DNA of 64,000 bases from Fidelibacterota bacterium (lineage in GTDB: Bacteria > Pseudomonadota > Alphaproteobacteria > Rhodospirillales > Rhodospirillaceae), in contig CANJRX010000001.1 of assembly GCA_947476895.1 (NCBI GenBank), positions 310,865 through 374,864 on the forward strand, read 5' to 3'. Below the pieces are notes generated by a model that was given only the letters and a program-made list of their open reading frames with translations, was not told the DNA's origin and made no database searches. The position numbers and the translations under genes are program-made. Positions 11,145 to 21,550 of this stretch are shown here, in pieces (position 1 is the stretch's first letter; each line of letters begins with the position of its first letter).

Positions 11145-12395
11145 CTAGGCCTGAGCCAGAATTTCGGCGATGGATTTAGGTTTGCGCATGGCGCGTGCCG
11201 GACCGCGTTCGATTTCCAAAGCAAGACCCAACCACTCTGCGGCTTTGTCGGTGTCGCCGCGTTCACGGCGTTCGACATCAGCCAGCAGTTGCGCTGCGCG
11301 TGCACGGATCGTCGGCGCGGCGTCAGCTCCTGTAAGGCCCGACAGACGATTGCGCGTTTGTCCCCACAGTTCGGCATCCAAAGACGCCGAGGCCACAGCC
11401 AAACGGCTTTCGGGATGATCGGGCGCCGCTTTCGCAAGGCCATCAATGCGCCGCGCCCAATCCAGCGACGACTCACCCGGCACAAGAATGCGGTACGCCG
11501 CAAGCAACTCTAAGCCCGGCTTCACGGCCCAGGCGCGCTCGACAGCGCCCGCAGCTTTGCGGCCGCGGCCTTGCGCTGTCATCGCTTTGGCATAGGCAAC
11601 GACCGCGGCTTGATTGGTGTCGTCCACGTCCATCGCCTTCTTGGCAGCGTTCGCCGCAGTCGAAGCATCGCCGCCGGCCAAGGTGGTGTGTGACTGCAAC
11701 GTGAGCAGCCGCGACTTCAAACGCTTCAGTTCGGTGGGTGAAAAAGCTTCGCGCGCGAGCTTGTCGTCCAAGGCGGTGAGTGCGCCCGACCACCGTTCCA
11801 GGCTGATTTCTGATTCCAGCACCGTCTGCAAAGCCCAACCCGGCGCATCTTTGCGTGCCAGCGCGCGGCGCGCATGCGTCAGGGCTCCGGCCATATCGCC
11901 GTCGCGCACGGCCTTTCCGGCCAAGGTCCGAAGACCCGCCAATTCGGTTTCAGGGCGGTTCAACAAGGCCGCGGCGGCAGCTTGCATCTCGCCTGCGTCA
12001 CCCGAAAGTTCAGCCGCATCCATACGCAAGACCAGCACAGCTGGATTGTCGTTGAGCAATGTACCCGCTTGGCGTGCGAGTCTCTTCGCGACTTGCGCTT
12101 GGCCCGCTTGCACGGCGGCAAAACCGTCGCCCAAGCTAGTAAGGCCGCGCTTGAAGCGCCGTTCGCGCCGCGCAGCTGCAAAAGCCTGCACCGTGCCGCC
12201 GATCAAAGCGATCACTTTCACGATCAGAAGAATTACGATCACCGCGACGATGATGGCGGTCACAAGAATGCCGACAGAGGTTTCGATCTGCCAGCCGCGC
12301 CAGGTCATGCTGACGGCGCCGGGATCGTTGGCCAGCCACACCGCGCCGGCTACCAGGGTCGCGACGGCGATCACAAATAAAATGAGGCGCGGCAT
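11145..12395 (-). CDS. hemY: HemY-like TPR membrane protein
   Basis: A 416-residue inner-membrane protein with two N-terminal membrane segments (about residues 2-22 and 40-66), the HemY_N signature, and TPR-like helical repeats after residue 85. This is the proteobacterial HemY named from the E. coli hemCDXY operon; it is not protoporphyrinogen oxidase. It lies 4 bp after the HemD-Mic60 fusion in the same direction, so the two are probably co-transcribed. Its biochemical function is not settled. Confidence 0.88.
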   Translation of the reverse strand: MPRLILFVIAVATLVAGAVWLANDPGAVSMTWRGWQIETSVGILVTAIIVAVIVILLIVKVIALIGGTVQAFAAARRERRFKRGLTSLGDGFAAVQAGQAQVAKRLARQAGTLLNDNPAVLVLRMDAAELSGDAGEMQAAAAALLNRPETELAGLRTLAGKAVRDGDMAGALTHARRALARKDAPGWALQTVLESEISLERWSGALTALDDKLAREAFSPTELKRLKSRLLTLQSHTTLAGGDASTAANAAKKAMDVDDTNQAAVVAYAKAMTAQGRGRKAAGAVERAWAVKPGLELLAAYRILVPGESSLDWARRIDGLAKAAPDHPESRLAVASASLDAELWGQTRNRLSGLTGADAAPTIRARAAQLLADVERRERGDTDKAAEWLGLALEIERGPARAMRKPKSIAEILAQA

Positions 12396-12399
12396 TGCG

Positions 12400-15300
12400 T
12401 CACTGACCGTTGCTTGAGGAAGGACGCGCGGGCTGATCGCCGGTGCCGACAGCAGCCAAGGCCGCGACGGTCTTGGTGGTTGCTTCGTTGGCAGCGCGTT
12501 CGGCTGCGACGCGCGCCTTGGCGACGTCGAGCCAAGATGCTGCGGCGGTCGCAGCGCTGCCGGAAAGGCCGTTCATTTCCATCACGGCGGCCGCGAGATC
12601 ACCTTCTGTCAAACGCGCTTGCGCACGCGCGAGCACAGCTGAAACACTCGTGCCGGCGGCATCACCGTCTAAGCGGCGTACCGTGATGATCAAGAACACG
12701 CGGTCCAAAATGCGCCGATACCAGGCGGCGGTGTCGTTCGGGATAATGCTCGCCCGCATCACCGCACCCGCTGTGGGCGTAAAGCGGCGTTGCAACTCTT
12801 GCAGCGTCGGCAAGCCTTTCTCGGCGGCCGCAGCGAAACCCGTGTCGTCAATCGTGACGCTGCCCGAGCGCGCTGCGAGTGCCTTGGCGGTTTCAAGCTC
12901 TAGTTTGAACGGATGACCTGAGAGGATAGCTTCGCGCCACTGCGCCACGGCCATCAGCAAAGCGATGCTCGCACTTTGCTCGACCATCGTGCGCCGACCA
13001 ACGGTTTCCAGTGTCGTCACGCGGTCGCTCAAGGCGAGCACGCTGTTGGCTTCGGCGCTGCGGCCTTCCAGCATGTTGAGACGTTTGCTCAAATCTTCCA
13101 GCCGCGCCGAATTACCGATGGCGGCTTCCAAGGTCGCAAGCCGTGCGCTGACGGCCGTGAGCTGTTTAGCCTGGCTCGACAAACTATCGCCGAGCGACGT
13201 GACCGCACCGCCGTCTTCGCCCGCGCCACTGCGCGCTTCCAAGGCGGCGAGGCGTTTGTTGATGTCTTGCTTGGCCGTGTTGAGAGTTTCCGGCGTGACG
13301 GTGTTGACGGCTTCTTGCTCAAGCACGCCCACGCGCGCTTTCAACGCATTGATGTCGACTTGTAGTGATGAGCCGGCGTCCGCTGGTGTATGGCCGGGTG
13401 TGCCCTGGACCATGGACGTCACGCGCGGCACCCACCACGACGCACTGCCCATGACGGCCGCAGCCACTGCTGCCAACACCACAAAAAGCGCCAGCACGCG
13501 TCCTGCGCCGCTGCGGCTTTGGCGGTTTTCGCGCGGCGCTGATGGCGCCGCTGCCGCGGGGCGCTCAATGGGCTCAGGTTCGGGTTGAGGTGTTTCGCTG
13601 TGGCCCAGATACTTGAAGCGCTGATCTTTCGCCCGCAAATCGGCGGCGTCTTCGGCGAGCAGACGTGCGGCACGCCCACCGCTGCGCGAAGCCGGCTTGC
13701 TGTCCGACGGCGGCGGCGTGGGCGCAGCGGCCTCGGGGACTGGATCTGGCGCGGAATTGTCTGACACGGTCTCTGCTTCCTTCGCTTGCGGTATCGACGT
13801 CTTGGCTTCGGGTTCAGCGATGTGTGGATCAGGCTCCAAGACAGACGCCGCAATCGGCGCCTCTATTGTAGCCGAAGGCGGCGGTTCCGCCACGCTTGGT
13901 GGACTTTCAGGGGGTGCGCTTTCAGCTGCGCTCTCCGCCATGGCCCAGATGGGGTTGGCGGGGGGGATGTCCTCGGCCGTCTTAGGTCCGCCAAACAAGC
14001 CTTTAAAGCGTGTCGTCCAGCTAGGGCCTGCGGGTAAGGCGGCCCGTTCAGCGCGGTGGCGCGCTTTTTCTTCCTCGGCCTTCTGCTGGCGTTCGGCTTT
14101 TTCGGCTGCGGCGCTGGCTTTTTCGGCCTGGCGCTGTTCTTCGCGTTCCTGAGCAAGCTGTGCCTTCTCGGCGGCTTTTGCGGCTTTTTCAGCTTCAGCC
14201 CGCTCTCGTGCTATGCGCTCGCGCTCAGCCCGCTCCGCCGCCAGACGTTCACCCGCGATGCGGTTCTGCTCCGCCTGTTCGCGCGCGATGCGTTCCCGTT
14301 CAAGGCGCTCCGCGTCCGCTTTCTCGCGGGCGATGCGGTCGTGTTCAGCTTTTTCAGCAGCGCGCTTTTCGCGCTCAACACGCTCAGCTTCGGCGCGCTC
14401 CTGCGCGACGCGTTCCTGCTCAAGACGTTCGGCTTCGGCCTTTTCGCGGGCGATACGGTCTCGTTCAGCTTTTTCGGCCGCACGCTTTTCGCGCTCAACA
14501 CGCTCGACCTCGGCACGCTCCTGCGCAAGGCGTTCACGCTCAAGACGTTCAGCTTCCGCCTTATCGCGCGCGATCCGATCCTGCTCCGCCTTTTCAGCAG
14601 CGCGCTTCTCACGTTCAACGCGTTCTGCTTCAGCGCGCTCTTGGGCTATGCGCTCGCGCTCAAGACGTTCGGCTTCCGCTTTTTCGCGGGCGACACGGTC
14701 GCGTTCAGCCTTCTCAATAAGTTGGCGTTCCAGCTCCTGCCGTTTGATCTCCGCTTGCTCAAGGGCAAGACGCTCTTGCTCGCTTTTGGCGGCCGCTATT
14801 TTTTCGGCGGCGATGCGATCACGCTCGGCCTTCTCGGCGGCCATCCGTTCACGTTCAATGCGCTCTTGCTCCGCGCGCTCCTTAGCTAAACGCTCACGCT
14901 CGATTTTCTCGGCGGCGGCTTTCTCAGCGGCAATGCGATCCCGTTCGGCTTTCTCGGCTGCCAAGCGTTCACGTTCGATGCGTTCTTGCTCAGCGCGTTC
15001 TTTGGCAAGGCGCTCGCGTTCAACTTTTTCAGCTGCAGCTTTCTCAGCCGCAACGCGATCTCGTTCGGCCTTCTCAGCCGCCAAACGTTCACGCTCAAGA
15101 CGTTCTTGCTCGGCGCGCTCTTTAGCAAGGCGCTCGCGCTCGGCTTTTTCAGCGGCGGCCTTCTCGATGGCTAGCCGTGCGCGCTCTTCTTTTTCGCGTT
15201 GTTTATGGGCAGCTTCTTCGCGCGCAGCCGCTTCCTTGGCGATCCGGTCCTGTTCGGCTTTTTCGGCGGCCGCTTTTTCGCGCGCGGCTTGCTCTTGCGC

Positions 15301-16125
15301 CAACCGTTCGCGCTCCGCCTTCTCGCGTGCTTTGCGGTCTTCTTCGGCGCGGACGCGCTCAGATTCTTCGCGGGCGCGGGTCTCGCGTGCCGCACGTTCC
15401 TCTTCGACCTTGTCGACAAGCTTCGTGTCAACCGCGGCGAATACCGTGTCGAGGTCGGATGCCCCCGGCACGCCCACACCGCCCAGCTTCAACGCGCGCA
15501 GAGGCGCGGCCACAACAGGCGATGCGGCGACACAGGGCAGCTCGCGCACCAAAGCTTCCATCTCATGACGTTGCACGAGAGCGACAAAGGCGCGCGCTTC
15601 GTCGGCGCCGAGGAACAGCGCTTTGTCGATGGAGCGGTTCTGCAAAGCCGCGCGCAAAACCTCGGGCATCTCGTCGGCGCGCTTTAGGGTGTAAAGCGGC
15701 AAGGGGCGCACCGCGAAGCCCATGTTGCTCAACATGGCCGGAAGATTGACGGGCGCTGCCGTGCTGCAGGCGTAGACCAGCGCGCCGTTGGCAGGTTTGA
15801 GTTCGCGCTCCACCAGCCGCGCGAGGTCGGCAGAGTCATCTTTCGCCGCATGCACTTGCTTGAAGCCGAGCGTGCGCAAGGTGGCCGCCGTCACTTCGCT
15901 GTCGGCGAACACCGGAAAGGTGCGCACGCCCACGGCGTCGGCCAAGGCTCGCGCACCGTCGGAGCCCGTCACCAGGAAGCCTTGCGCGTTGGCGAGGTTG
16001 ACCTTGGGGTGTGGCTCGCGTTCAACCGTCAACAAGGGCGCAACAACTGCTTCGTGGCCGCGCGCTTTCAGCGCCGCGACCGCAGCCTTTGCATCCTCAG
16101 CCGATTGTGTGATCAGAACCCGCAT
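12400..16125 (-). CDS. Fusion: uroporphyrinogen-III synthase - charged helical repeat - Mic60/mitofilin-like domain
   Basis: A single uninterrupted 1241-codon gene. Residues 1-235 are a HemD domain (MRVLITQSAEDA, YACSTAAPVNLP, FLGADEARAF), which closes hydroxymethylbilane to uroporphyrinogen III in the cytosol. Residues about 236-700 are Glu/Lys/Arg/Ala-rich helix with eight 40-residue repeats at 331-650. Then come a Pro/Ala-rich linker (715-865), one membrane segment (876-898), a periplasmic coiled coil, and a C-terminal helical domain (about 1045-1210) like alphaproteobacterial mitofilin (COG4223). Bacterial Mic60 shapes intracytoplasmic membranes and is usually a separate gene beside hem genes. 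Upstream hemC is absent. The fusion itself is seen; its function is inferred. Confidence 0.85.
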   Translation of the reverse strand: MRVLITQSAEDAKAAVAALKARGHEAVVAPLLTVEREPHPKVNLANAQGFLVTGSDGARALADAVGVRTFPVFADSEVTAATLRTLGFKQVHAAKDDSADLARLVERELKPANGALVYACSTAAPVNLPAMLSNMGFAVRPLPLYTLKRADEMPEVLRAALQNRSIDKALFLGADEARAFVALVQRHEMEALVRELPCVAASPVVAAPLRALKLGGVGVPGASDLDTVFAAVDTKLVDKVEEERAARETRAREESERVRAEEDRKAREKAERERLAQEQAAREKAAAEKAEQDRIAKEAAAREEAAHKQREKEERARLAIEKAAAEKAERERLAKERAEQERLERERLAAEKAERDRVAAEKAAAEKVERERLAKERAEQERIERERLAAEKAERDRIAAEKAAAEKIERERLAKERAEQERIERERMAAEKAERDRIAAEKIAAAKSEQERLALEQAEIKRQELERQLIEKAERDRVAREKAEAERLERERIAQERAEAERVEREKRAAEKAEQDRIARDKAEAERLERERLAQERAEVERVEREKRAAEKAERDRIAREKAEAERLEQERVAQERAEAERVEREKRAAEKAEHDRIAREKADAERLERERIAREQAEQNRIAGERLAAERAERERIARERAEAEKAAKAAEKAQLAQEREEQRQAEKASAAAEKAERQQKAEEEKARHRAERAALPAGPSWTTRFKGLFGGPKTAEDIPPANPIWAMAESAAESAPPESPPSVAEPPPSATIEAPIAASVLEPDPHIAEPEAKTSIPQAKEAETVSDNSAPDPVPEAAAPTPPPSDSKPASRSGGRAARLLAEDAADLRAKDQRFKYLGHSETPQPEPEPIERPAAAAPSAPRENRQSRSGAGRVLALFVVLAAVAAAVMGSASWWVPRVTSMVQGTPGHTPADAGSSLQVDINALKARVGVLEQEAVNTVTPETLNTAKQDINKRLAALEARSGAGEDGGAVTSLGDSLSSQAKQLTAVSARLATLEAAIGNSARLEDLSKRLNMLEGRSAEANSVLALSDRVTTLETVGRRTMVEQSASIALLMAVAQWREAILSGHPFKLELETAKALAARSGSVTIDDTGFAAAAEKGLPTLQELQRRFTPTAGAVMRASIIPNDTAAWYRRILDRVFLIITVRRLDGDAAGTSVSAVLARAQARLTEGDLAAAVMEMNGLSGSAATAAASWLDVAKARVAAERAANEATTKTVAALAAVGTGDQPARPSSSNGQ
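14176..15135 (-). repeat. 120-bp x 8 in-frame tandem repeat (40-residue charged helix)
   Basis: Inside the HemD-Mic60 fusion, residues 331-650 fall into eight exactly 40-residue units. Conserved blocks per unit are ERLAKERAEQ, ERIERERLAA and EKAERDRIAA, then EKAAAEKIER or EKAEAERLER. No unit is longer or shorter. Codon usage differs between units, so the copies are not recent. Composition fits a single-alpha-helix (ER/K) or coiled-coil rod. Confidence 0.92.
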
Positions 16126-16239: not shown

Positions 16240-17307
16240 ATGGTTCCTATGATCGTACTGGGTATCGAGACCAGCTGTGATGAAACCGCCGCCGCCGTCG
16301 TGGACGGTGACGGTCGCGTGCTTTCTCATGCGGTTTTAAGCCAGATCGCCGAACACGTTCCCTACGGCGGAATCGTGCCCGAAATCGCCGCGCGTGCGCA
16401 TCTCGCGCATTTGGACCGGTTAATCACCAAGGCCATGGATGAGGCGAAGGTTTCTTATGCTGATCTCGCGGGCGTCGCTGCGACGGCAGGTCCCGGATTG
16501 ATCGGCGGCGTCATCGTCGGTCTCATGACCGCCAAGGCCATCGCCGCCGTTCATGATATTCCGCTGATGGCGGTCAACCATCTCGAAGGCCATGCGCTGA
16601 CCGCGCGCTTCACGGACAACGTTGAGTTCCCCTACTTGTTGCTGCTGGTCTCCGGCGGGCACTGTCAGCTTCTGGCGGTGGAAGGTGTGGGGCGCTATCG
16701 ACGCCTTGGCACCACGGTCGATGACGCCGCCGGCGAGGCCTTCGATAAAGTCGCGAAGATGTTGGGCCTCGGTTATCCCGGCGGTCCGGCGATCGAGCGC
16801 GCAGCATCGAGCGGCGATAAAACCCGCTTTGCTTTTCCGCGCCCACTCAAAGGCAAACCCGGCTGCGATTTTTCATTCTCGGGTTTGAAGACCGCTGTGC
16901 GCCTTGCTGCTGAAGCGCTGCCGGAAGGGGCCTTCACCGAAAAAGATGTCGCCGATCTCGCAGCATCTTTTCAAACAGCGTTGGTAGACTCCATCGCTGA
17001 TCGCGTCGCGCGCGCGACGGATATTTTTCGGAAAGCATATCCAAACGGAAAATCTTTGGTGGTCGCCGGCGGTGTCGCTGCCAACACGGCCTTGCGCGAT
17101 GTGCTGATGAAGACCGCGACGAAAGCGGGTCTGTCACTCGCGGTACCGCCGCAGGCGTTGTGCACGGACAACGCCGTCATGATCGCGTGGGCTGGCATTG
17201 AGCGTTTAAAATTGGGCCTTACTGACGCGCTTGATTTTAAAGCCCGGCCACGCTGGCCGCTGGATCCTGATGCGCCAAAGGCCACCGGCGCAGGCGTAAA
17301 AGCCTAA
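16240..17307 (+). CDS. tsaD: tRNA N6-adenosine threonylcarbamoyltransferase
   Basis: TsaD transfers the threonylcarbamoyl group to A37 of ANN-decoding tRNAs together with TsaB. The 355-residue protein begins with [17 protein letters not shown], carries the Fe/Zn-binding histidines H114 and H118 (NHLEGH), and has [11 protein letters not shown] near the C terminus. An ATG at 16249 is an equally good start. Its stop overlaps the convergent epimerase gene by 4 bp. Confidence 0.96.
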
Positions 17308-18314
17308 ACTTTATAATAGTCGCGGAACCAGGCGACCGTTTTGCCGAGGCCTTCATCCAACGATACTTGGGGCTGATACCCCACCGCGCGGTTCAGCGCG
17401 CTCACATCGCACCACGTACCTTCGACATCGCCCGCTTGAATGGGCATGAAGTTGATGACGGCTTTTTTGCCGATATGTTTTTCCAAGGTGGCGATGAAGT
17501 CCATCAGGTCCACCGGCGCACCGCGCCCGATGTTGAAAATACGAAACGGCGCAACACCGCTGCCATCAGGTGTGGGCGACATTGCATCCCACGACTCATC
17601 GGCCACCGGCACATGATCGGTCAGGCGCACGACGCCTTCGACGATGTCATCGACGAACGTGAAATCGCGCATCATCTTGCCGTCGTTGTAAACTTCGATC
17701 GGATCACCCGCACAAATCCGCGCGGTGAATTTTTGCGGCGCCATATCGGGGCGGCCCCAGGGGCCGTAAACCGTGAAGAAGCGCAAACCCGTCATGGGGA
17801 TTTTGAAAATATGCGCGTAGGAATGCGCCAGCAATTCATTGGCGCGTTTGGTCGCGGCATAAAGACTTAAAGGATGCGCCGCGCTGTGATGCTCGGCGAA
17901 GGGCATGGCCCTGTTGGCGCCATAAACCGAACTGGTCGAGGCAAAGACCATGTGCTTCACGTCTGCGGCGCGGGCCGCCTCCAGCACATTCATGAAGCCG
18001 GTGAGGTTGGAGTCTATATAAGCCTGCGGATTGTCGATGCCGTAGCGCACGCCGGGCTGAGCGGCCAAGTGCACGATGTGCGTTGGCGCGATCTCATCGA
18101 CCAAAGCCAGCACGGCGGCTTTGTCGGTCAGGTTAAGGCGGTGGCCGGTAAAACCTTTGCGACCTTCCAGGCGCGCCCAACGGGCTTCCTTCAGCTTCAC
18201 ATCGTAATAGGACGTGAAACCGTCCAGGCCATGCACCCGCCGGCCGTCGTCGAGAAGCCGCGCCGCAACGTGCGATCCGATAAAACCCGCAGCGCCTGTG
18301 AGAAGAATGGTCAT
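17304..18314 (-). CDS. NAD-dependent epimerase, UDP-glucuronate 4-epimerase-like
   Basis: A 336-residue extended short-chain dehydrogenase. It starts with the NAD-binding GAAGFIGSH; the catalytic YAATK follows an ASTSSVYG block; the C-terminal half has [13 protein letters not shown] and [12 protein letters not shown]. Length and these blocks fit UDP-glucuronate/UDP-glucose 4-epimerases such as LpsL or CapI, which make sugar nucleotides for envelope polysaccharide. The ATG at 18314 is used; the reading frame is open to 19184, but that part is antisense to gpsA. Substrate is inferred. Confidence 0.88.
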
Positions 18315-18434
18315 GAGATGGTCTAGGCCTATTTTCTGAGACATAGCAACGGGGTTCGGCGCCTTTTGTCGCGGATATACTCCCCGCGACCATGGGCTCG
18401 ACAGGGGCCCAAGGCCCATGCCAAGACAGACGCT

Positions 18435-19454
18435 ATGCAAAGCGTGGGAATCATAGGGGGCGGCGCCTGGGGTACGGCTTTGGCCGTGGTCGCGCGCCGG
18501 GCCGGCCGCGATGTGACGCTGTGGGCCTTGGAGTCCGAGGTGGTCACGGCCGTTAACAGCCAGCACCGCAACCCGCCTTACCTGCCCGATGTTCCGCTGG
18601 ACCCGGCCATCACCGCCACCGGCGATATGATTTCGGTCGCCAAGTCCGACGCTATTCTGTTGGTCGCTCCCGCCCAGCACCTGCGCGGCGTATGCCGCAC
18701 GCTGGCGCCTCATATTAAAGCCGGCACGCCGGTTGTGATCTGCGCCAAGGGTATTGAGCGCGGCAGCTCGGCCCTGATGACCGATGTTGTGGCCGAAGTT
18801 CTGCCCCACGCCGCCATGATGGTGCTGTCCGGCCCCACTTTCGCCCGCGAAGTGGCGATGGGCCTGCCAACCGCCATCACTTTGGGCGCAGCGGATCAAA
18901 CCTTGGGCCGCAAAGTGGCCGAAGCCATCAGTTCGCCGACCTTCCGGCCGTATCTCTCCGAAGACGTGATCGGGGCCGAAGTGGGCGGCGCGGTTAAAAA
19001 CGTGCTCGCCATCGGCTGCGGCATGGCCGACGGCAAAGGTCTCGGCGCCAATGCGCGCGCGGCGTTGCTGACGCGGGGCCTGGCCGAGATCGTGCGCCTG
19101 GCCGTGGCCCGCGGCGGCCAGCCTGAAACGCTCATGGGTCTTTCGGGTCTCGGCGACTTGGTGCTGACCGCCACATCGCTTCAATCGCGCAACTATTCGC
19201 TCGGTGTAGCCTTAGGCAAGGGTCAAACCCTCGACGAAGTGTTGGGCGCGCGGCGCTCGGTGACGGAAGGTGTCACGACCGCCGAAGCCGTGGTCACCCT
19301 CGCCGCCAAATTGAAAGTCGATATGCCCATCTGCGCCGCTATCGACCGTGTACTCAATCATGGTGCCGCCATCGACGACATGCTGCGCGGCCTTTTAGAG
19401 CGCCCCTTGCGCGATGAAGTCGACGCGGCCATCAAGCGGAAGAATAACGCGTGA
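18435..19454 (+). CDS. gpsA: Glycerol-3-phosphate dehydrogenase (NAD(P)+)
   Basis: GpsA reduces dihydroxyacetone phosphate to sn-glycerol-3-phosphate, the backbone for phospholipids. From ATG 18435 it has 339 residues, starting with the Rossmann motif VGIIGGGAWGTALA; the catalytic lysine lies in GGAVKNVLAIGCG and the substrate loop in GLSGLGDLVLT. The frame extends to 18366, but the extra residues precede the Rossmann fold with no match to the family. It overlaps manC by 4 nt. Confidence 0.95.
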   Translation: MQSVGIIGGGAWGTALAVVARRAGRDVTLWALESEVVTAVNSQHRNPPYLPDVPLDPAITATGDMISVAKSDAILLVAPAQHLRGVCRTLAPHIKAGTPVVICAKGIERGSSALMTDVVAEVLPHAAMMVLSGPTFAREVAMGLPTAITLGAADQTLGRKVAEAISSPTFRPYLSEDVIGAEVGGAVKNVLAIGCGMADGKGLGANARAALLTRGLAEIVRLAVARGGQPETLMGLSGLGDLVLTATSLQSRNYSLGVALGKGQTLDEVLGARRSVTEGVTTAEAVVTLAAKLKVDMPICAAIDRVLNHGAAIDDMLRGLLERPLRDEVDAAIKRKNNA

Positions 19455-21118
19455 GCAAAACGATCCGCCTTTACCCTGTGATCCTTTCCGGCGGCAGCGG
19501 CTCGCGGTTGTGGCCCTTGTCGCGCGAAGAATTTCCCAAGCAGCTTCAGCCGCTGACATCTGAACGCAGTCTGCTGCAGGAAACCGCGCTGCGCCTCGGT
19601 GATGCGGGCACCAAGAAATTTCACGTTGAAGCGCCGATCATCGTCTGCAACGACGCGCATCGTTTTGTGGTGGCCGAGCAGCTGCGGGCTGTGGGCATCG
19701 AACCCAAAGCCATTATCATCGAGCCGCAGGGACGCAACACAGCCCCCGCCGCTTGCGTAGCCGCGCTGCTGATCGAGAATGAACCCGACGCGTTGATGCT
19801 GGTGATGCCGTCCGATCATCTGGTGCGTAATCCCGAAGCCTTCCGCGATGCTGTTGTTAAGGCCGCGGCCGTTGCGCAAAGCGGACACCTCGTGACCTTC
19901 GGTATTCAACCCACGGCAGCCGCAACCGCTTACGGCTATATCAAGCAAGGTAAAGCGTTGTCGGACTCGGCTCACGCAGTCGAACGCTTTGTCGAAAAGC
20001 CCGATGCTGCTAAAGCCGCCGCGTTCTTGAACGAAGGCGGCTATTACTGGAACGGCGGCATCTTCTTATGGCCCGTAGCGCTTTATTTAAGCGAACTCGC
20101 GCGCAACGAACCGTTGATCACACCGGCGTGCCGCGAAGCGCTCACGCAAGGCCAAAACGATTTGTTCTTCTTCCGCCTCGACGCGACGGAATTTGCAAAG
20201 GTCCCTGCGCAGTCTATCGACTATGGTGTCATGGAGCGCACCGATAAGGCCGCCGTGGTGCCCGTCGATATGGGCTGGTCCGATGTCGGATCGTGGAGCG
20301 CATTGCACGAAGAAGCGCAGCACGACGAAGCCGGCAACACCATGCTGGGCGACGTGCTCGCCATCGACACGCGCAATACGTATGTGCGCACTGAAAAGCA
20401 GCTGACGGCCGTCATCGGATTGAACGATGCAATCGTCGTCGTCACTGCCGACGCCGTGCTGGTGGCCGACAAAAAACACGATCAACAGGTCAAGCAGATC
20501 GTCGAACGTCTGAAGGCTGCAGGACGCTCTGAAGCCACGGCGCAAGCACGCACGCATCGGCCTTGGGGTTGGTTCCAGACCATGGACGAAGGCCACCGCT
20601 TCAAGGTGAAGCGTTTGTGTGTGAAGCCGGGCGCAAAACTCTCGTTGCAAAAGCACTGGCATCGCAGCGAGCATTGGGTTGTCGTGACCGGCACCGCTTT
20701 GGTCACGCGCGGCACCGAAGATTTCACCTTGCGCGAAAATGAATCGACTTATATCGCGGCCGGTACGACGCACCGCCTCGCCAATCCCGGCCACGTCGAG
20801 CTGCACATGATCGAAGTGCAGTCGGGTGAATATGTAGGCGAAGACGACATTGTGCGCATCGCCGACGATTACGGCCGCAGCGAAAATGCGCCCAAGCGCC
20901 CCATCACGAAGCCTAAGGCATCGAAGAAAAAGGCCGCGCTGAAGAAGTCCGCGCGCAAGATCCGGCGCAAAGCCAATCCCGCCGCCGCGCATACCGGTCC
21001 TCGGGGCCGCCGTGTGCGCCGCCGTGTCGTGCGTCCGTCCACGAAGGTCAACACCCGCAAAGCCGCACCCAAAAAGACACCACCCAAATCACCAACGAAG
21101 CCGCGCAAGCGGCGGTAA
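19451..21118 (+). CDS. manC: Mannose-1-phosphate guanylyltransferase / mannose-6-phosphate isomerase with a basic C-terminal tail
   Basis: A type II bifunctional enzyme making GDP-mannose. The N-terminal pyrophosphorylase has GGSGSRLWPLSREEFPKQ and the zinc-binding cupin isomerase domain is in the last third (RPWGWFQTMDEGHRFKVKRL, then LQKHWHRSEHWVV). Typical homologues end near residue 475. Here a further 79 residues (477-555) follow, 32 of them Lys or Arg, with Pro, Ala, Ser and Thr. This resembles histone H1-like tails and could bind nucleic acid or polyanions; that is inference. The gene is coupled to gpsA. Confidence 0.93.
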   Translation: MSKTIRLYPVILSGGSGSRLWPLSREEFPKQLQPLTSERSLLQETALRLGDAGTKKFHVEAPIIVCNDAHRFVVAEQLRAVGIEPKAIIIEPQGRNTAPAACVAALLIENEPDALMLVMPSDHLVRNPEAFRDAVVKAAAVAQSGHLVTFGIQPTAAATAYGYIKQGKALSDSAHAVERFVEKPDAAKAAAFLNEGGYYWNGGIFLWPVALYLSELARNEPLITPACREALTQGQNDLFFFRLDATEFAKVPAQSIDYGVMERTDKAAVVPVDMGWSDVGSWSALHEEAQHDEAGNTMLGDVLAIDTRNTYVRTEKQLTAVIGLNDAIVVVTADAVLVADKKHDQQVKQIVERLKAAGRSEATAQARTHRPWGWFQTMDEGHRFKVKRLCVKPGAKLSLQKHWHRSEHWVVVTGTALVTRGTEDFTLRENESTYIAAGTTHRLANPGHVELHMIEVQSGEYVGEDDIVRIADDYGRSENAPKRPITKPKASKKKAALKKSARKIRRKANPAAAHTGPRGRRVRRRVVRPSTKVNTRKAAPKKTPPKSPTKPRKRR

Positions 21119-21124
21119 GCTTTT

Positions 21125-21227
21125 CCCCTCCCCTGCAAGGGGAGGGTCAGGGAGGGGTCGTTCTGGCTGCAGAAAATAAAGCGCTTAGCTAACGACCCCC
21201 TCCTAGCCTCCCCCTTTTAGGGGGAGG
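21125..21227. repeat. REP-like paired palindromic element, copy A
   Basis: Left module 21125-21162 holds the hairpin CCCTCCCC-TGCAA-GGGGAGGG followed by TCAGGGAGGGGTCGTT. Right module 21191-21227 is its near mirror: AACGACCCCCTCC, TAG, CCTCCCCCTTTTAGGGGGAGG. The two are separated by 28 bases, so the whole element can form one large hairpin. It lies after manC and may end transcription. A second copy, in the reverse module order, is at 38304-38408. Confidence 0.85.
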
Positions 21228-21262
21228 TATAGTCATTCGAGTTTATTTCATGAGGGTCCCCC

Positions 21263-21550
21263 ATGCTCTGCACGATCATCTGTTACGACAAACCGGGCAG
21301 CCTCGATCTGCGCATGGCGACCCGACCCACACACTTGAAGTGGATCGAAGGCAGCGGCGTGACATTTACATATGTCGGCCCGCTCCTGGCCGATGACGGC
21401 CAGACACCGCGAGGCTCACTGTTCGTCGGTGAGTTCGACAGCCTAGACGCGGCACGCACGTTTGCTAAATCCGATCCTTACGCGTTGGCCGGCCTGTTCG
21501 AAACGGTCTCCGTTCACCCCACACGCAAAGTCTTCCCGGCCGATAAATGA
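21263..21550 (+). CDS. YciI-family protein
   Basis: A 95-residue YciI-like protein with a ferredoxin-like alpha-beta fold. The N-terminal MLCTIICYDKPGS, the RPTHLKWIE histidine and GSLFVGEFDSLDAARTFAKSDPY are typical. The family is related to muconolactone isomerase folds and has no general agreed function. It overlaps the following Rieske gene by 4 nt, so the two are probably co-expressed. Confidence 0.87.
   Translation: MLCTIICYDKPGSLDLRMATRPTHLKWIEGSGVTFTYVGPLLADDGQTPRGSLFVGEFDSLDAARTFAKSDPYALAGLFETVSVHPTRKVFPADK

Follow-up and report, generated by a model that had tools for sequence, protein, structure and literature searches.

The window analysed here, a stretch of 64,000 nucleotides from a Rhodospirillaceae-like metagenome-assembled genome (MAG), contains a single open frame of 1241 amino acids (aa) that encodes a protein with a uroporphyrinogen-III synthase (HemD)-like head and a Mic60/mitofilin C-terminal part. 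The parts of this fused gene are listed below, with the evidence for each in parentheses.

12400..16125, minus strand: fused hemD-like/mic60 gene, 1241 aa (open frame; HEM4 and Mitofilin; conserved in relatives)
15421..16125, minus strand: HemD-like head, residues 1-235 (Pfam HEM4, AlphaFold2 (AF2) model, PDB match, residue counts)
14044..15411, minus strand: 456-aa E/R/K/A stretch read as a single alpha helix, residues 239-694, with a ~40-aa repeat (autocorrelation, charge spacing, 120-bp tandem repeats)
13681..14043, minus strand: Pro-rich stretch, residues 695-815, with the short amphipathic segment SWTTRFKGLFGGPK at its start (sequence reading)
13609..13680, minus strand: juxtamembrane motif GGRAARLLAEDAADLRAKDQRFKY, residues 816-839, found solely among members of the converted-head clade (motif hidden Markov model, HMM)
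13432..13500, minus strand: membrane helix with an Arg-rich N side, residues about 876-898 (hydropathy)
12490..12996, minus strand: mitofilin domain, residues 1044-1212 (Pfam; profile match to PDB 7pv1)

In an hmmscan of the protein against Pfam, residues 15-220 matched HEM4 with 73.3 bits against a cut-off of 27.5, and residues 1044-1212 matched Mitofilin with 58.1 bits against one of 27.4, so that the HemD-Mic60 fusion and the domain order put forward in a preliminary description of this DNA were borne out, with both profile scores exceeding their cut-offs. A six-frame search of the genome with PF09731 gave a contrary result and missed the mitofilin domain. The profile of the Mic60 domain matched the mitofilin region of the solved MIC60 structure 7pv1 (E 9.6e-10, 66 positions), and by its C-terminal Mitofilin domain the protein belongs to the Mic60/mitofilin family. 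The AF2 model of residues 1-235, with a mean predicted local distance difference test score (pLDDT) of 92, adopted the HemD fold, and all 13 chains retrieved with it from the PDB at E<=0.001 were uroporphyrinogen-III synthases; by both the HEM4 profile and the fold, the head is a member of the HemD fold family. The best 19-residue hydrophobic window was residues 877-895, and a putative coiled coil behind the membrane helix was assigned by sequence reading alone. Considering the Arg-rich N side of the membrane helix, the positive-inside rule predicts a cytoplasmic N terminus.

Of 61 genomes searched with HEM4, counting that of the window, 59 gave a match, and 40 loci were fetched. We call F1 the fused heads of the window's clade, which are found in Rhodospirillaceae-like MAGs including this genome, and canonical the loci with the gene order hemC, hemD, mic60 (separate or fused), hemY, in which tsaD is usually divergent. 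A single open frame spans both domains in 17 clade loci besides the window (L051 included, part of whose head is in a different frame), in four more clade loci of a further set, and in 14 canonical loci; the relatives that carry the same fusion come from the genus, the family and the order. Head and Mic60 domain are in two frames in L050, L052 and L133, and contig ends truncate other loci. When the search was widened, HEM4 matched in 218 of 225 genomes of the order (>= 90% completeness), and at least 49 genomes of the order outside the clade had the match in a frame of at least 550 aa, as counted by eye among the matches listed and on frame length alone. Since the same one-frame fusion recurs in further loci, the HemD-Mic60 fusion is confirmed as real, and is neither chance nor a local error. 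An assembly or sequencing artefact that joined two genes, named in the preliminary description as what could overturn the fusion, might be suspected from the three MAG loci with two frames; it is refuted by the one-frame loci, in which the same domain order was recovered, and we give it practically no credence. The earlier view that hemD and mic60 are normally separate in alphaproteobacteria does not hold in this order, where the fusion is common and 14 canonical cases were checked directly.

Concerning the origin of these sequences, the labels of the named genomes (32 loci) were Rhodospirillaceae in 14 and Candidatus Marinimicrobia in 10, the latter being wrong in our view; the remaining ones were Alphaproteobacteria, Proteobacteria, Caenispirillum, Rhodobacteraceae or uncultured, and some name lakes, e.g., Baikal and Erken. 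At L142:5973-6820 (Baikal-G1 MAG, genome G070) the HemD-like head is in separate frames, by decay or base-calling errors, and the Mic60 and hemY frames are open.

Residues 239-694 showed a period of ~40 residues by autocorrelation, and the corresponding DNA is made of 120-bp tandem repeats. Opposite charges were found 134 times at i+4 versus 9 times for like charges, and the heptad phases, with 5-8 each, gave no hydrophobic stripe. ER/K single alpha helices are recognised by opposite charges at i,i+4 and by the absence of a heptad stripe, and because both features are present we read this stretch as a single alpha helix. With the rise of 0.15 nm per residue of an alpha helix, the 456-residue arm would be about 68 nm long. 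An equally long spacer, of 789 residues up to the Mic60 domain, was found in L053 (genome G024), but it is Pro-rich with short repeated amphipathic motifs; the spacer of L129 resembles it, and by the tree L129 would belong to the same genus as L053. The linkers of L054, L135 and L137 are short (157 to about 240 residues), so that spacer length is not common to the whole clade. A short amphipathic, cationic segment also recurs several times in the Pro-rich spacers of L053 and L129, and the window has one similar at about residues 700-716.

The juxtamembrane motif GGRAARLLAEDAADxRAxxQRF was detected in 23 of the 25 F1 Mic60 frames besides the window (all but L054 and L137) and in none of the 24 canonical Mic60 frames; the motif HMM was built from 18 instances, which match by construction, its weakest hits reached only E 1.6e-3, and the count leaves out L132, L136, L138 and L140, which are repeats of other loci.

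The fused gene has the following neighbours.

11145..12395, minus strand: hemY-type tetratricopeptide-repeat membrane protein, next operon gene downstream (HemY_N; TIGR00540 77.7 bits, below the cut-off of 142)
16240..17307, plus strand: tsaD, divergent neighbour and a marker of this locus in relatives (phmmer conservation; name from translation reading)

All 24 canonical loci (L057-L073, L099, L100, L105-L109) have hemC as a neighbour, and none of the 23 F1 loci (L034-L056) does. The absence of hemC beside the fused gene, pointed out in the preliminary description, was confirmed at the locus; its absence from the whole genome was rejected, as hemC was found on another contig (C6), in a cluster hemA-hemL-kinase-regulator-hemC-hemE-hemF (names from translation reading). 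A further hemD, whose existence had been raised together with that of hemC, was found as well: this second HemD (HemD2) is located on C4, beside hemB, and the fused copy as the sole HemD of the genome was rejected. HemD2 is present in 22 of 25 F1 genomes and in none of the other 36, where nine weak matches of the search correspond to canonical HemD itself. It adjoins hemB, mostly behind cysH, and most genomes of the genus have the cluster cysH-hemD2-hemB. In G019 and G022 its place is between hemC and hemB, in one cluster hemC-hemD2-hemB. HemB was found in 31 of 33 genomes tested, that is, in all but G024 and G070.

The cleft of the head was studied in an alignment of 24 F1, 24 canonical and 21 HemD2 sequences, from which the partial L103 and L104 and one L051 fragment were dropped. 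We took as near-invariant the positions with the same residue in at least 23 of the 24 canonical HemD (44 positions of the window qualify) and as lost those where the canonical residue is kept in fewer than half of the rows. At the 44 positions the canonical residue occurs in 98-99% of cases in canonical rows, 56% in F1 and 45% in HemD2; F1 lost 20 and HemD2 24 of them (11 in both, 9 in F1 alone, 13 in HemD2 alone). The nine positions lost by F1 and kept by HemD2 are 7, 8, 75, 76, 127, 175, 202, 220 and 223. Among the 24 F1 rows, R7 is replaced by Q in 19, V75 by D or E in 24, G76 by S in 22, D127 by N in 20, R175 by D or E in 24 and T176 by E in 23, and P223 is kept in 2. The 21 HemD2 rows keep R7 (21), S54 (20), V75 (20), G76 (20), D127 (20), Y145 (21), S173 (21), R175 (18), S202 (19) and P223 (21). 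The window's own head carries R7Q, V75D, G76S, G96D, D127N, R175D, T176E and other replacements, and the V-G pair lost in F1 is present in 4 of the 4 solved enzymes aligned. Judged by the cleft residues that are invariant in canonical members, the fused head would fall outside uroporphyrinogen-III synthase as an enzyme. With NCBIfam PRK09189 the window's head scored 70 bits, short of the cut-off of 223, which neither the canonical L073 (126 bits) nor HemD2 (43 bits) reaches.

When these positions were located on the AF2 model, 19 of the 20 lost by F1 were at strand-to-helix junctions versus 8 of the 24 kept (Fisher p 3e-5), and the HemD2 control showed no such bias (13 of 24 lost versus 14 of 20 kept, p 0.36). 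In folds of this type, such junctions make up the ligand cleft. The mean net charge summed over the 44 positions was +1.0 in canonical HemD, +0.5 in HemD2 and -4.6 in F1. The substrate of uroporphyrinogen-III synthase carries eight carboxylates, and such an octacarboxylate would probably meet acids in the F1 cleft, with the junctions placed here on the predicted model and not on a ligand complex.

In the tree, the 28 rows of F1 heads group as a single clade (support 100/100), whose stem measures 1.06 changes per site and whose internal branches are shorter. Support for the forks by which F1 nests among the canonical heads is 86-92%, and none of these forks is starred. Omega was 0.05-0.18 for the head (8 pairs, some of which share a genome) and 0.08-0.16 for Mic60 (the 5 pairs where it was measurable). 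Conservation of the head exceeded that of HemD2 in all 20 genomes compared and was roughly equal to that of Mic60; these comparisons all share the window's genome and hence are not independent. Thirty-three columns are invariant among 21 F1 rows. The fused head is under purifying selection and is not decaying.

Taking these results together, we think it fairly probable that the fused head lost its synthase role and gained a new binding role. The head would most likely bind without catalysing, carried on a single helix of ~68 nm that is joined to Mic60, rather than act as a tethered active synthase, and HemD2 seems to have taken over the job in the heme pathway. As synteny and the tree suggest, the ancestral operon would have been hemC-hemD-mic60-hemY, with hemD and mic60 often fused; in the ancestor of the clade, hemC would have left, HemD2 would have appeared beside hemB and the fused HemD would have been rewritten at the cleft. 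The mitofilin domain would act in the periplasm on membrane shape, and the head may be held by the helix up to about 68 nm off the membrane, where its two-lobed, now acidic cleft could dock another ligand or a protein partner and thereby couple membrane organisation to something cytoplasmic. HemD2 would perform the uroporphyrinogen III chemistry. As a more tentative proposal, on which our doubts somewhat exceed our confidence, a doubled heme enzyme may have been split by function: one copy for the chemistry, and the other as the cytoplasmic head of a Mic60-type relative of the mitochondrial cristae protein, with an inverted, acidic cleft, a clade-specific motif and a spacer selected for reach and not for sequence, since it is built in two ways, as a charged single helix in one genus and as a Pro-rich stretch in another. 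If true, a long cytoplasmic antenna would tie the architecture of the bacterial inner membrane to a partner.

Several observations weigh against the loss of the synthase role. In three F1 genomes, G017 (76% complete), G018 (89%) and G024 (99%), no HemD2 was found. F1 keeps S54 in 15, Y145 in 22 and S173 in 17 of the 24 rows, and the window keeps T79; we take Y145 and T79 to correspond to the human residues Y168 and T103. Counted in bulk, fewer of the 44 residues are kept in HemD2, which is thus more divergent than F1, and HemD2 has also lost 11 of the 20 positions that changed in F1. HemD evolves fast, and its sequence is a weak guide to activity. In G024, GluTR (glutamyl-tRNA reductase), HemB, HemC, HemE and HemD2 were not found by search (ALA, that is, 5-aminolevulinate, synthase was not searched for in any genome), and the fused protein (L053) is an open frame of 1316 aa; this case, a pathway apparently lost and a head kept, would speak for the loss of the synthase role but is suggestive only, and the hemC-hemD2-hemB clustering of G019 and G022 means that one assembly gap could explain three of the absences. 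HemB, HemC and HemE were not found in G070 either, and with its head in broken frames this genome was given up as a clean second case without the pathway.

The preliminary description had proposed that the fusion tethers an active tetrapyrrole enzyme to the membrane. This fits the canonical fusions but probably not the present one, because a second HemD exists and the fused copy has replaced cleft residues kept by both canonical HemD and HemD2. For the head to make uroporphyrinogen III at the membrane, HemD2 would serve another branch, e.g., siroheme, and its place in the cluster with cysH in most genomes of the genus is consistent with that, as the HEM4 score above the cut-off, the intact fold and the frequent Y145 are with activity of the head. 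We nevertheless regard an active synthase as unlikely, given the nine positions lost in F1 alone, of which canonical HemD and HemD2 keep the residue, the several positions turned acidic, the location of HemD2 next to the common-trunk gene hemB, and in two genomes even between hemC and hemB, and the open fused frame of G024, where HemB and HemC were not found. Less probable still is a sensor, a non-catalytic head that binds a tetrapyrrole or a precursor and in this way informs Mic60 of the heme status; in its favour are the origin of the head in a tetrapyrrole-binding fold, the conserved two-lobed structure, the strong constraint and an operon that still holds hemY, but the net acidic cleft positions disfavour an octacarboxylate, and HemE was not found in 13 of the 23 F1 genomes tested, 10 of the 23 being of unknown completeness. 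The broken head frames of G070 (L142) and L051 might suggest a passive relic, a dead domain kept because the head starts the mic60 frame; the omega values, the 33 invariant columns and a head more conserved than HemD2 make this very improbable.

With a non-catalytic binding head, the heme-enzyme part seems relieved of the pathway yet kept on Mic60 under strong selection, which would mean that the HemD fold serves Mic60 by something besides making uroporphyrinogen III. To our knowledge there is no agreed answer as to why mic60 sits in the alphaproteobacterial heme operon, and the matter bears on the ancestral function of mitochondrial Mic60.

The HemD-Mic60 pairing is of an already known kind and is the alphaproteobacterial counterpart of HemD-HemX: the order is hemC-hemD-hemX-hemY in E. 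coli versus hemC-hemD-mic60-hemY in these genomes. The excerpt of PMC7641849 describes an alphaproteobacterial context in which TsaD-GpsA-YciI-EVE adjoins HemC-HemD-IMMP-HemY, with Rhodobacteraceae lacking HemC there, and calls IMMP (mitofilin, Mic60) a diverged HemX homolog; as the operon positions also match, HemX can hardly be set apart as a different partner, as had been done before. The profile comparison of Mic60 with E. coli HemX (hhalign) covered 14 columns only (E 0.048), and no match to the HemX domain (PF04375) was found in the fused protein up to E 0.1, which places it outside the HemD-HemX fusions. A short I/V-T-I/V-R-R-x-D stretch, matching the operon position, was seen in E. coli HemX (L182) and in window residues 1143-1156, and is too short for significance.

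Like the HemD-HemX fusion (NCBIfam PRK06975, NF005411), the window protein has an N-terminal HemD and a C-terminal membrane protein of the same operon position; unlike it, the C-terminal part is of the Mitofilin family, a putative long single helix is inserted and the cleft is rewritten. The 14 canonical fusions of the order (L057-L060, L062-L064, L066, L068-L073) share the domain order, the hemY neighbour and, in most, tsaD, but have hemC adjacent, keep the invariant HemD residues, lack the charged-helix array and have 83-275 residues between the two domains, membrane helix included. A membrane helix and a mitofilin domain are common to Mic60/mitofilin of Alphaproteobacteria and mitochondria, unlike the about 875 residues that the window protein would have on the cytoplasmic side. 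The solved uroporphyrinogen-III synthases (3re1, 4es6, 3mw8, 1jr2, 1wd7) have the same fold as the window's head, whose cleft motifs are replaced. The converted head, the HemD2 partner gene, the arm and the juxtamembrane motif were not found in the literature searched, which is no proof of novelty. No paper joining mic60, alphaproteobacteria and hemD or heme biosynthesis was retrieved, and mitofilin plus hemD gave the PMC7641849 excerpt; membrane shaping by bacterial Mic60 is reviewed in PMC12136173, seen as an excerpt.

On the other side of the fused gene, window 16240-21550 contains tsaD, gpsA and, at 21263-21550, a YciI-like frame, which agrees with the context given in the PMC7641849 excerpt, here with a mannose-1-phosphate guanylyltransferase-like frame (19451-21118) in between (all names from translation reading). 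Genome G051 (63% complete) has two canonical hemC-hemD-mic60-hemY loci, L099 and L100, by duplication or in a mixed bin. A third HEM4 protein of another type was observed in five genomes of the genus (L094-L098 in G001, G007, G010, G012 and G017); L097 scored 116.7 bits and is near a SelO-like frame (name from translation reading). In the C6 cluster of the window's genome (L102), a histidine kinase and a response regulator are located between hemA (glutamyl-tRNA reductase)-hemL and hemC-hemE-hemF, and GlutR_N was found in 51 of 61 relatives. Alphaproteobacteria mostly use ALA synthase, and glutamyl-tRNA reductase is unusual there. The presence of a two-component system within this heme cluster invites a test.

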